Source: Verrucomicrobiales bacterium (GTDB taxonomy: Bacteria; Verrucomicrobiota; Verrucomicrobiia; Verrucomicrobiales; DEV007). Taken from it: a stretch of DNA of 46,288 nt. A program made the position numbers and the translations under genes. Below the pieces are notes generated by a model. The model saw nothing but the letters and a program-made list of their open reading frames with translations, was not told the DNA's origin and did no database searches. Where the stretch lies: NCBI GenBank assembly GCA_029213065.1, contig JARGPH010000018.1:62167-108454 (forward strand). The letters are read 5' to 3'. Shown here piece by piece: positions 36,195-46,288 of this stretch (position 1 is the first letter of the stretch; each line of letters opens with the position of its first letter).

Positions 36195-36215
36195 CAGTTT
36201 TCAGTTTTCAGTTTT
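36195..36215. repeat. heptamer tandem repeat CAGTTTT x3
   Basis: Three direct copies of CAGTTTT plus a partial fourth lie in the 58-base gap between the Nramp-like gene and the sialate O-acetylesterase gene. It is immediately upstream of the TTG start of the transporter, so length changes could alter translation initiation. Such heptamer repeats often vary in copy number. Confidence 0.6.
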
Positions 36216-36248
36216 CAGTCTGAATTCGGGAGTCCCGGAGAATTATCT

Positions 36249-42785: not shown

Positions 42786-43448
42786 TCAGAATGTCGTCTC
42801 TCGATACCCTTCGAGACTGGGCTGGAAGAGCGAGAGGGGAACCGGCGCATTCGGAACCACCTTGTTAAAAACGGTTTCGACTGAGGAACCGTCTTTGAGA
42901 TCGATCTCGATACCGACGAGGCGGAAATGCCGTGATTCGACGACGTAGGTGAACGACTGCACGCCGCGGGCATCCGCTCCGAGGGGAGCCGCAACGATGC
43001 GGTAGGTGTTGTCACGCGGCTCAACCTGAAGAACCCGGTATTTCCGCTGAAACTCTTCGAGGGTTCGGGGGAAGCCTTTTGCCAGAGCTGCCATCGCGGG
43101 CGTGTCGCCGGTGCCCGGTGAGCGCTTCTCGTATTTTTTCATCGGAGTGCGGATGATGATGAGATCGCGGTGCGGTTTTACGACGATGGTTTGAGGCGGA
43201 TCGCCGACCTGCCACCGGAAGCGGGAATGTGAGTGATCGAGCCAGAGAGTTCCGGTCTGACGGATCGGAACTTTGAGAGAGCGCATTGTTCTCGTCTGGG
43301 TGAAATCAATCTGCAGTGATTTGACTCCGGAATTGGTCGCGAGCCAGCGCTTCACGATATCGAGATTGTCGGCGGCGAATCCTGACGGGGAGAAAAAGAG
43401 GCTCAGCAAAGCGAGGCAGACGAGACGGTGGGGGAGAAGAGGAGCCAT
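42786..43448 (-). CDS. LolA-like outer-membrane lipoprotein carrier
   Basis: This 220-residue periplasmic protein has a signal peptide (RLVCLALLSLFFSPSGFA|AD) and a LolA-type half-barrel pattern (VKSLQIDFTQTRTMRSLK, GTLWLDHSHSRFRWQV, VKPHRDLIIIRTPMKKYEK). LolA ferries lipoproteins or lipids from the inner to the outer membrane. It is 33 bases after the MMPL exporter gene. Such LolA-MMPL pairs occur in aryl polyene-type loci, where LolA-like proteins may carry lipid products. Whether this one handles lipoproteins (true LolA) or lipids is open. Confidence 0.8.
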   Translation of the reverse strand: MAPLLPHRLVCLALLSLFFSPSGFAADNLDIVKRWLATNSGVKSLQIDFTQTRTMRSLKVPIRQTGTLWLDHSHSRFRWQVGDPPQTIVVKPHRDLIIIRTPMKKYEKRSPGTGDTPAMAALAKGFPRTLEEFQRKYRVLQVEPRDNTYRIVAAPLGADARGVQSFTYVVESRHFRLVGIEIDLKDGSSVETVFNKVVPNAPVPLSLFQPSLEGYRETTF

Positions 43449-43481
43449 GGGTATAAAAGGTCGGTGTATCGGTGAAAAAGA

Positions 43482-45881
43482 TCAAGTGGTCGCGGGGGAC
43501 GCTTTGCGGGCGTGCAGCCAGACCCACCAGCGCGGCAGCAACCAGACGGCCACGACCATGTTCACGAGGACGCCGACGGCACACACGATGCCGAGGCTGG
43601 CGAGCCCGTGGGCGGACGCGGTTGCCAGTGAGCCGAAGCCGATCGCAGATGAGGTCCCGCAAAAGACGAGCGCTTTCCCGATGCCGTGACGCGCCGCGGT
43701 GACATTGCCGCCGTTGCGCCTCAGCGCGAAAATCATGTGAATGCTGAAGTCGAGCCCGGTCCCGAACAGGAGGGGAAGGCCGCAGACGTTGAAGGAGTTC
43801 CAGTTCATCGGTGTCCAGATCGTGAGGAGGACGATGAGACAGCCGGAGAAGAGAAGGCAGAATAATCCCGCGACGAGATCCCGCCACGAGCGGAAGACGA
43901 TCGCGAGCATGATGGAGAGCATCGCCATCATGGGAAGAAAAACGCGGACGAGATCTCCTTTGATACGTTCATTCAGCGCAGTTCCCAGAGAGCTGAGGCT
44001 TGCGACGACGGTGTTCTCGTCACAGATCGCATTGACCCAGGTGCGGTCTTCCGGACGAGCCGGTTTCACGGTTCCGAGTGCGGCAAAGACGCCTTCCTTT
44101 TCAGAAAAGAGTCGATTGACCGACCACTCGGCGAGTTTTCCTTCCGGTTTCGCGAAAGTGTTAGCGTCGAGCTGTTCGAGGTGGCTTCGCCACGAGTCGA
44201 AGACCGTTTCGGTGAGCTTGGCTCCGTCCTCTGAGAATCCGACGGCTGAAATTTCCGAGAGAATGCGGGGCTTCTCTTCGACGATCGCTCTGATAGCGGC
44301 ACGGTTCGCGGTCTGATTTTCCGGGGCGGGAATGAAGCTGGTGGGAAGCACTGAGTCAGTGAGAAGTCCCTCGTCGAGGGCCGCTTTGATTCTTTCCGAT
44401 GCCGCTTCGATATTGGCATTCAATTCGGGGAGGCTTTTCCCCGTGATCACTGTGGGGATGGAATTTTCCCGTCCTGCGAGTTCATGCTGGAGGGTTTGCC
44501 AGGCAATCATCGAGGGGCTTTCCCGAATCCGGAAGGGATGGAAGTTCGCCTCCAGTCCCGGCATTTCTTTGAGAAACATCGAGCCGATCGTGAACAGCGG
44601 AACAAAGATTGCGAGGACACCGGCCAAACGCCTTGTCACTCCCATGCCTTCGAGCTGTAATCCGCGTGGTTTGACGACGTCTTTGTTGAACTCCACCGCG
44701 ACGGGCGCGAAGAGATAGAGCATCACGAGAGCGCCCACGGCAATCCCGATCGCGACCAGATTCCCCATTTCGGAAAGCCCCGGTAGCGAGCTGAAATTGA
44801 GGGAGAGAAAGACCACCGCCGTAGTCGCCGCCGCCCAGATAATTCCGGGACCGACGGAGCGGCGCAGGGCCCCGGCGTCGCCCTTGGTGTCCATCGCCTC
44901 CCGATAGAGAACGATCCCGTAGTCCACTGCGAGCCCCATGAGAATCGCGGCGAATCCCGCGCTCATAATGCTGAGATCGCCGAAGAGAAATCCTCCGAAT
45001 GTCAGGGTGATCACGAGGGTGAGGAGCACCGCTGAGATGAGCCAGGAGAGCGGACGGGTGCGCCGGTGCATGACCCAGAACAGAAGCGAGATCAGCACCA
45101 TCGTCATAATCACTGAAACCGTCATGTCACGTTCCATCTCGGCACCGACTTCGGCCATAAAGGCGGGTGTTCCTGTCAGCCCGATAATGACTTTTTTGTG
45201 GTCACTCGAGGATTCTTTCCATTCCTCTTCCCAGGCCCTGACACTCGTCTTGAGTTTTTTCAACCAGACGGCTGCCTCGCGGTAGTCAGAGAAATCGACG
45301 CCGGCTCCTTCGAGATAGATGACCTGGAAGGTGCCGTCCGCAGAGATCATCGAATCCGGATTCGAGGCTTCATCGCCGAGGAGGGTTCCGAGGTCGGAAA
45401 AGCCGAGGGGATCGTAGCTTGTCACGATAACATCCTGATCAAAAAAGCCGCTCTGAATCGAGGCCATCGCTTCGCCGATTTGCTCACTTGATCGGGGGGC
45501 GCGAAGCTTTGCAAGCAGCTTCTCCAAATCATCGGGAGGTCCATTCATCCAAAGCCAGCTGAGGAGTCCGCCTCCTTCGGTCACCAGCTCCGAGATCGAG
45601 AGCTCCTGAAACACTTCGGCAACCAGTTCCGGTTCGTTTCTGAAATGGTCGGCGAGCGATTCGATTGCCTCTTCTGCGAGAAAAGATTCCTCCGCTTTCA
45701 CCGTGACAATGAGCTGACCGTCACGACTGAAATAACGGTTCAGTCGGTCCATTCCCTGAACTTCGGGGAGGTCTTCCGGCAGCATTTCATAGAGGCTCGC
45801 CGAGAATTTCACCCGCATGAGACTGAACGCTGCCAGTGAGCAGACGATCGCCATGATAATAATGGGGTGAATACGGGTCAT
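43482..45881 (-). CDS. MMPL/RND superfamily exporter
   Basis: This 799-residue inner-membrane protein has two repeats of one transmembrane helix, a large periplasmic domain, and a cluster of five to six transmembrane helices (around residues 1-30, 245-430, 440-460 and 610-790). The first helix set has GLAVDYGIVLYREAM and the second GTGLDFSIHMIFALRRN, typical of the MMPL/RND proton relay. Such proteins export lipids or hydrophobic molecules using proton flow. Together with the LolA-like carrier downstream it forms a lipid/envelope export unit. Confidence 0.85.
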   Translation of the reverse strand: MTRIHPIIIMAIVCSLAAFSLMRVKFSASLYEMLPEDLPEVQGMDRLNRYFSRDGQLIVTVKAEESFLAEEAIESLADHFRNEPELVAEVFQELSISELVTEGGGLLSWLWMNGPPDDLEKLLAKLRAPRSSEQIGEAMASIQSGFFDQDVIVTSYDPLGFSDLGTLLGDEASNPDSMISADGTFQVIYLEGAGVDFSDYREAAVWLKKLKTSVRAWEEEWKESSSDHKKVIIGLTGTPAFMAEVGAEMERDMTVSVIMTMVLISLLFWVMHRRTRPLSWLISAVLLTLVITLTFGGFLFGDLSIMSAGFAAILMGLAVDYGIVLYREAMDTKGDAGALRRSVGPGIIWAAATTAVVFLSLNFSSLPGLSEMGNLVAIGIAVGALVMLYLFAPVAVEFNKDVVKPRGLQLEGMGVTRRLAGVLAIFVPLFTIGSMFLKEMPGLEANFHPFRIRESPSMIAWQTLQHELAGRENSIPTVITGKSLPELNANIEAASERIKAALDEGLLTDSVLPTSFIPAPENQTANRAAIRAIVEEKPRILSEISAVGFSEDGAKLTETVFDSWRSHLEQLDANTFAKPEGKLAEWSVNRLFSEKEGVFAALGTVKPARPEDRTWVNAICDENTVVASLSSLGTALNERIKGDLVRVFLPMMAMLSIMLAIVFRSWRDLVAGLFCLLFSGCLIVLLTIWTPMNWNSFNVCGLPLLFGTGLDFSIHMIFALRRNGGNVTAARHGIGKALVFCGTSSAIGFGSLATASAHGLASLGIVCAVGVLVNMVVAVWLLPRWWVWLHARKASPATT

Positions 45882-45972: not shown

Positions 45973-46288
45973 GTAGAGGAATCTGTGAGGATTTCTACCG
46001 TAGCAATGGGTGTCTCGAGCGGCACGGCCAACGCGGAGAAATGCTTACGCAATTCCTCTACAGGGTGGGTGAGTAGAGGAATCCGTGAGGATTTCTAACG
46101 TAGCAACGGGTGTCTCGGCGGCACGGCCAACGCGGAGAAATGCTTACGCAATTCCTCTACAGGGTGAGTGAGTAGAGGAATCCGTGAGGATTTCTGCCGC
46201 AGCAATGGGTGGCTCGAGCGGCACGGCTAACGTGGAGAAATGCTTACGCAATTCCTCTACAGGGTGGGTGAGTAGAGGAATCCGTGAG
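45973..46288. repeat. tandem array of REP/BIME-like units
   Basis: Three units (45973-46072, 46073-46171, 46172-46271; 100, 99 and 100 bases) and a fourth partial unit at 46272-46288 follow one another. Each unit begins with GTAGAGGAATC and ends with ATTCCTCTAC plus AGGGTGGGTGA-type spacer. Each contains one hairpin at the start (GTAG then AGGAATCC-GTGA-GGATTTCT) and an inverted partner at the end (on the other strand GTAG then AGGAATTGC-GTAA-GCATTTCT). The 5' GTAG and GNRA-type loops (GTGA, GTAA) are features of REP elements moved by RAYT transposases, and pairs of inverted REPs form BIMEs. The array continues beyond the window. Confidence 0.75.

Follow-up and report, generated by a model that had tools for sequence, protein, structure and literature searches.

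A tandem array of GTAG-tagged REP hairpins in a Verrucomicrobiales genome and a RAYT clade associated with the same hairpin geometry in sister species

Array layout and neighboring genes

The window analyzed here is a stretch of 46,288 nt (G000:C12:62167-108454) of a Verrucomicrobiales genome, referred to as G000 (5.91 Mb, 80 contigs, 96.21% complete), and its last part is a tandem array of inverted hairpins next to an MMPL-family gene (Table 1). The genes around the array all lie on the minus strand, and the array sits between co-directional genes: one side holds a flavin amine oxidoreductase that reads as CrtI-like, together with a glycosyltransferase and a CrtO-type acyltransferase, and the other side the MMPL gene and a LolA gene. 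The array may have a role in the expression of these neighboring genes, including the effect on MMPL transcription proposed in the initial annotation. As a separate observation, the same-strand run at L035 2626-5782 together with window positions 42786-45881 resembles a cluster for a glycosylated carotenoid or a related pigment.

Tandem Repeats Finder, run on the window, described the array as 3.2 copies with a period of 100, 93% matches, and a score of 562; counted by units, it consists of three repeats of 100, 99, and 100 nt plus 17 nt, in agreement with the initial annotation, which had proposed at least three full units and a partial one. A run of 100 N sets the limit of the window at position 46288; on the far side of this gap the array continues as far as approximately G000:C12:108611, so that the window does close inside the array, as had been noted. 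At 2472-2597 and 36195-36219, the same program also reported other short repeats in tandem, with units of 15 and 36 nt and a CAGTTTT heptamer.

Each unit of the window array contains a Y hairpin on the plus strand, GTAG AGGAATCY GTGA GGATTTCT, and an inverted Z hairpin on the minus strand, GTAG AGGAATTGC GTAA GCATTTCT, with one bulged base in this reading; the spacer from Y to Z measures 39 to 40 nt and the linker from Z to the next Y 11 nt. The common geometry is thus a GTAG tag, an 8-bp stem, and a GTGA or GTAA loop, and both the repeat analysis and the hairpin scan bear out the description of a tandem BIME array with GTAG ends and these two loops. The G-T pairs that had been noticed in the stems were also recovered: the third stem pair is G-T in every hairpin seen within the window, and unit 1 has an additional T-G closing pair (GAATCT versus GAATCC). 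Among the small changes that had been placed in or near the stems or the spacer, this one concerns the closing pair, and the AACGTAGC/GCCGCAGC difference belongs to the spacer, outside the stems.

Table 1. Coordinates, in window numbering, of the array, its hairpins, and the adjacent gene
Feature	Position	Strand	Description
MMPL-family gene	43482..45881	-	799 aa; PF03176, 79.8 bits; start 91 nt from array
Tandem BIME array	45973..46288	.	Period 99-100
REP Y1	45973..45996	+	GTAG + 8-bp stem + GTGA loop, T-G closing pair
REP Z1	46037..46061	-	GTAG + 8-bp stem with one bulged base + GTAA loop
REP Y2	46073..46096	+	Strict hairpin and genome pattern
REP Z2	46136..46160	-	Strict hairpin and genome pattern
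REP Y3	46172..46195	+	Strict hairpin and genome pattern
REP Z3	46236..46260	-	Genome pattern match, sequence
REP Y4, incomplete	46272..46288	+	Assembly gap cuts element at window end

When folded in silico as single-stranded DNA, the Y2 strand adopted exactly the hairpin described above (-4.1 kcal/mol, z -3.67, no shuffle equal), and its complement folded less well (-2.7 kcal/mol). The Z1 strand preferred a shorter hairpin of 6 pairs with a T-T mismatch (-3.1 kcal/mol), the bulged 8-bp form of the Z strand was not obtained by the DNA fold, and the complement was almost as stable (-2.8 kcal/mol); a strand difference is therefore clear for Y only. A complete Y-to-Z unit could form one long hairpin (-19.4 kcal/mol, z -4.2), and one unit folded as RNA reached -31.4 kcal/mol (z -3.75). 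A GTAG beside an imperfect palindrome able to form a hairpin, the feature that characterizes GTAG-REPs and BIMEs, is present in both elements, with a DNA fold that is clear for Y and weaker for Z. No match to a known RNA family was found in Rfam up to an E value of 1 over 7 kb around the array.

Dispersed copies in the array's own genome

Further copies of the hairpin are abundant. A strict pattern, GTAGAGRAAN{3,4}GTRANNATTTC, matched G000 99 times (50 forward, 49 reverse) at 27 separate places, and the reversed pattern, which served as the control, had no match; a strict hairpin rule gave 0 matches in 2.44 Mb of base-shuffled sequence of the same genome. At the two stem positions not fixed by the pattern, 194 of 194 cells over 97 sites were paired (mean of 2,000 shuffles, 139.7; maximum, 155), a contrast that mostly reflects Y versus Z, i.e., two main types with a few compensated variants within each. 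The pairs at these free positions were C-G, G-C, T-A, T-G, and G-T. The third inner pair, the 3' side of which is fixed as A by the pattern, was T-A in 93 of the 97 sites and unpaired in 4. By rough ORF calling, 22 of the 26 clusters examined lie between genes (convergent in 12 cases, co-directional in 8, and divergent in 2), and the other 4 overlap a long ORF. The family is thus present in high copy number, dispersed, and largely extragenic, and it forms mosaics of alternating orientation and tandem arrays, all of which are properties of GTAG-REPs and BIMEs.

The period of the arrays stays at 99 to 113 nt across loci even though the spacers differ from one array to another. Within arrays, the Y-Z spacers are 89% alike on average (43 pairs); between arrays, they share 52% identity versus 47.6% when shuffled (78 pairs, 30 of them at a shuffle p of <= 0.02). 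A Z-adjacent tail of the form ~GGATAGGCT..GCGG was found again at many loci, and without the tail next to Z, the between-array values were 46.5% versus 44.3% (10 of 78 pairs), a weak residue beyond the tail in which pairs exceed the chance expectation. A CRISPR-like or other kind of tandem repeat was excluded, since the units are inverted hairpin pairs and the spacers are alike within an array. Head-to-head and tail-to-tail arrangements coexist within arrays; seven of the nine lone doublets in G000 are tail-to-tail, with 10 to 17 nt between the tags, and two are head-to-head. Head-to-tail repeats of GTAGAGGA, the octamer with which the REP begins, directly adjoin an array at G000:C78:117910-117957.

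A RAYT clade in sister species and the missing partner in G000

Among 74 genomes of the family, the strict pattern occurred in four, all from one genus: G000 (99 matches), G004 (Akkermansiaceae bacterium UBA2367; 12 matches), G009 (Verrucomicrobiales bacterium CSSed162cmB_98, 79% complete; 3 matches), and G010 (Verrucomicrobiaceae bacterium AS06rmzACSIP_174; 1 match). A wider pattern yielded 201 sites (G004, 145; G003, 18; G009, 14; G005, 11; G015, 8; G010, 4; G000, 1), and a stem pair was broken in two of 150 of them among the matches listed. Single matches in unrelated phyla, obtained in a scan of named genomes (at least 81 stretches), look like chance. Judged by eye among the matches listed, the doublets of G004 are mainly head-to-head and about 52 nt apart.

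A clade of RAYT proteins of about 190 aa was found in the same genus, with 14 loci below an E value of 1e-30, spread over 12 of its 33 genomes; one locus, G005:C18, carries an internal stop. In the alignment, which covers 12 of the 14 loci, an MPDHxH motif is nearly invariant and Y135 and N139 are invariant. The NF047646 model matches all 12 aligned members and Pfam Y1_Tnp 6 of them; the scores with NF047646 of the ten clade loci listed, 41.9 to 51.7 bits, all lie below its curated cut-off of 80. The sole distinct PDB match of the clade profile was TnpAREP (4ER8; E = 1.3e-7). With an HUH motif, a catalytic tyrosine, and similarity to TnpAREP, the sister-species clade is assigned to the RAYTs on the basis of its sequence. 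The catalytic tyrosine of TnpAREP we take to be Y115. The residue N119 of TnpAREP is named in the text of PMC6006769.

The clade is associated with hairpins of the geometry seen in the window. With the rule fixed as a tag of GTAG or GTAA, 8 pairs exactly, and a loop of 4 to 5 nt, hairpins lay on both sides of 10 of the 14 clade loci, and none such were found at the other 4. Hairpins under this rule were present at 3 of 23 other Y1/RAYT loci, for which the two-sided arrangement was judged by eye, the both-sides count having been computed for the clade only, and 9 matches were obtained in 2.29 Mb of shuffled DNA. These 23 controls comprised 16 of 19 weaker RAYT matches (the other 3 had no locus) and 7 genes of G000 itself. 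The hairpins at the three control loci have ATCC/ATCT or GGCYC loops, so that GTAG REPs with different loops also accompany RAYTs of this genus outside the clade. A strict rule of GTAG plus GNRA was matched at 7 of the 14 clade loci, at 0 of the 23 others, and nowhere in 2.44 Mb of shuffled sequence. Around the clade RAYTs, the stems diverge strongly between lineages (AGAAnTTC, CGAAGGTC, CCGCnnTC, and CGGAAnTT) with pairing kept, and the loops are GTGA, GTAA, GTCA, GCAA, GGAA, GGCA, and a 5-nt GCNAA, with CCCA in one locus.

The REPtron closest to the window REP is G004:C100, in which the RAYT, 186 aa long, has REP hairpins to either side, namely, GTAG AGAAATTC GTGA GAATTTCT and relatives; a close relative thus holds a RAYT flanked by REPs of the same family. 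Also at this locus is GTGG AGGAATTC GTGA GAATTTCT; like the window hairpins, it has G-T as its third pair, and it differs from the window Y REP by a single tag base and one stem pair, the latter compensated. In other sisters, many tags read GTAA. Sites tagged GTAA account for 10 of 11 in G005 and for 3 of 3 among the matches listed in G015 (8 in all), and elsewhere, among the matches listed, for 7 of 14 in G009, 2 of 4 in G010, and 1 of 100 in G004. Hairpins with GTAA flank the RAYTs G015:C51 (L162, 5/5 hairpins) and G005:C9 (L163, 3/4), and the RAYTs of G005 and G015 are sisters in the tree (support 99/98). Since GTAA tags are also present in G009 and G010, in which no clade RAYT was matched, the switch from GTAG to GTAA is not confined to the G005/G015 sublineage.

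The initial annotation had also led one to expect, in some other part of the genome, a RAYT gene bordered by these hairpins, and no such gene was found: the protein search for the clade gave no match in G000 at E <= 0.001, and the clade profile, searched up to E 10, matched only other RAYT-type genes there. There are seven such Y1/RAYT genes, and none had window-type REPs within the flanks retrieved for it, which measured at most 1.5 kb (the C43 gene lies 253 nt from a contig end, so that one flank is short), which led us to reject them as the REP partner. The REP-like site nearest to any of them is about 4 kb from the C65 gene. Within this 96% complete assembly, therefore, no RAYT was found that is flanked by the same REPs; with seven Y1/RAYT genes and 99 hairpin copies, G000 is nevertheless not a genome that lacks both RAYT genes and further copies, the case that would have spoken against the initial annotation. 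A neighbor comparison found no common genomic site of the clade RAYTs by which an emptied site in G000 might be located; apart from RAYT-to-RAYT matches, only neighbors in G020 and G019 were weakly alike, and the G028 rows of this comparison represent the RAYT itself at other coordinates.

Three RAYT-like genes or groups are recorded here in their own right. At G000:C11:60134-60448 (L156 1430-2430), a 176-aa RAYT-like gene has a different repeated element on both sides, which on one side is in tandem about 140 nt apart and runs into a run of N. At G000:C65:7753-7983 (L034 1010-1935), a 238-aa RAYT-like gene lies between two inverted-repeat doublets of the GGACATCCCTGTCC type. A protein of about 350 to 380 aa, with a C-terminal half that accounts for most of its match to the RAYT model, is present in dozens of copies over dozens of contigs in G009 (78 matches) and twice in G000 (C2) and looks like a multicopy element.

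Given an assembly that is 96% complete and the runs of N in several arrays, loss of the gene is indistinguishable from its loss in assembly. We regard as a tentative alternative, on balance unlikely, that the matching RAYT exists in the organism and fell into the missing ~4%, in keeping with the fragmentation into 80 contigs and with the tendency of REP-rich loci to break contigs; against this, neither search recovered even a fragment of the clade, and the arrays on C12, C26, and C51 were scaffolded despite their N runs. It is less probable still that the family remains active and that another RAYT/Y1 protein of G000, for example, that encoded by the C11 or the C65 gene, moves the REPs in trans. 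Seven candidates exist, the clade profile gives a weak match to the C11 gene (29.8 bits), a REP-like site lies in the wider vicinity of the C65 gene, and the high similarity of spacers within arrays is compatible with recent amplification; however, slippage or unequal recombination would equally yield such similarity, the genes on C11 and C65 each have different repeats of their own alongside them, and none of the seven has window-type REPs in its fetched flanks. Improbable, finally, is that the arrays are kept as functional RNA or DNA elements (mRNA stabilizers, terminators, or gyrase or IHF-like sites) rather than being transposon debris, and just as improbable that the window array separates the expression of the CrtO-type and MMPL genes: its position between co-directional genes and the RNA fold of one unit would suit such functions, but clusters occur in every gene arrangement, with 12 of 26 between convergent genes, Rfam gave no match, and the confinement of the strict pattern, among the 74 family genomes, to four of one genus speaks against an old conserved role.

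Interpretation and comparison with known systems

We consider it very probable that the window array consists of BIMEs in tandem that belong to a GTAG-tagged REP family, one that was spread by a RAYT and whose partner is missing from the G000 assembly. Directly shown are the dispersed copies, the compensated hairpin, the mostly intergenic sites, the homogeneity within arrays, and the association of the hairpin geometry with the RAYT clade in sister species; the assignment to the REP/BIME kind thus holds, with GTAG-tagged elements throughout the genome and the same geometry flanking sister RAYTs. Points against this explanation are the lack of a clade RAYT match in G000, the NF047646 scores below the cut-off, the four clade loci without such hairpins, the four sites with an unpaired third inner pair, the weak Z fold, and the mostly tail-to-tail lone doublets, which do not have the head-to-head REPIN form.

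By analogy with the published biochemistry of TnpAREP, a RAYT would have bound the single-stranded GTAG hairpin, reading the tag, stem, and loop and leaving the stem sequence largely free, and would have cut and rejoined the strand, whereby REP doublets spread; local tandem duplication of doublets may then have made the arrays. As the window REPs combine constant parts with a free stem sequence, we infer recognition of the TnpAREP type as the best fit. Since the matching RAYT is missing from the G000 assembly, the REPs may be remnants, or another RAYT may move them in trans, i.e., the family is apparently orphaned or mobilized in trans. Any present role, in mRNA stability between co-directional genes or in supercoiling, would be secondary.

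Two points appear to be of some interest, the absence of the partner transposase from G000 and the GTAA-tagged REPs in sister species, and a joint reading of both can be put forward, which we regard as doubtful. The RAYT clade of the genus would read geometry (tag, 8 bp, and mostly a G..A loop) almost regardless of stem sequence; in G005 and G015, tag and transposase would have shifted together from GTAG to GTAA; and the window lineage would have lost its RAYT while about 100 REPs persisted, mostly as tail-to-tail units and their arrays. The GTAA tags in G009 and G010, both without the clade, lower the probability of this reading. If it is true, the co-shift predicts a shifted cleavage dinucleotide, which would make the GTAA variant a natural test of the guide-sequence model for cleavage-site choice, and a natural comparison with and without the transposase would exist inside one genus: REPs occur together with a clade RAYT in G003, G004, G005, and G015 and with no clade RAYT detected in G000, G009, and G010. 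With such a set, the fate of REP populations after loss of the transposase (decay, persistence, or continued amplification) can be addressed, and it bears on the part that REP/RAYT systems play in their hosts.

This GTAG-REP/BIME family belongs to a known kind and, as far as our searches go, is new both as such and for its taxon; among the literature matches listed, no title concerned REPs in Akkermansiaceae-type bacteria. The GTAG superfamily (Di Nocera et al. 2013, PMC3733652) resembles the window REPs in its 5' GTAG tag, stems of mostly 6 to 9 bp, short loop, G-T stem pairs, and occurrence as dimers and tandem groups with flanking DNA. Tail-to-tail dimers are known from GTAG-19 of Opitutus terrae, a member of the Verrucomicrobia that is highly enriched in GTAG repeats (PMC3733652). 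Many loops in the superfamily are TY or CMA, and "GNRA" is absent from the available text of that paper, whereas the loops in the window are GTGA and GTAA; the window consensus was set against its 24 families by text only. Some species are without REPtrons (PMC3733652, section 16). A difference from the superfamily is that the matching RAYT of the window family was found in sister species only.

The REPINs of P. fluorescens SBW25, which occur with a RAYT (Bertels and Rainey 2011, PMC3116915), share with the window family inverted doublets at a fixed distance, a less conserved spacer, and tandem clusters, and they differ from it with regard to the predominantly tail-to-tail lone doublets of G000. 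Tandem arrays with flanking DNA and diverse spacers have been described for REPs and REPINs (PMC3733652, PMC3116915, PMC8049555). According to the text of PMC8266576, TnpAREP recognizes and cuts the REP strand, not its complement, via GTAG and loop or stem irregularities. Compared with the Group 3 TnpAREP/REP systems of that study, in which the loop and GTAG matter in a strand-specific manner, the window family differs in its GTGA and GTAA loops and is alike in its short perfect stem, which in S. maltophilia likewise has 8 bp.
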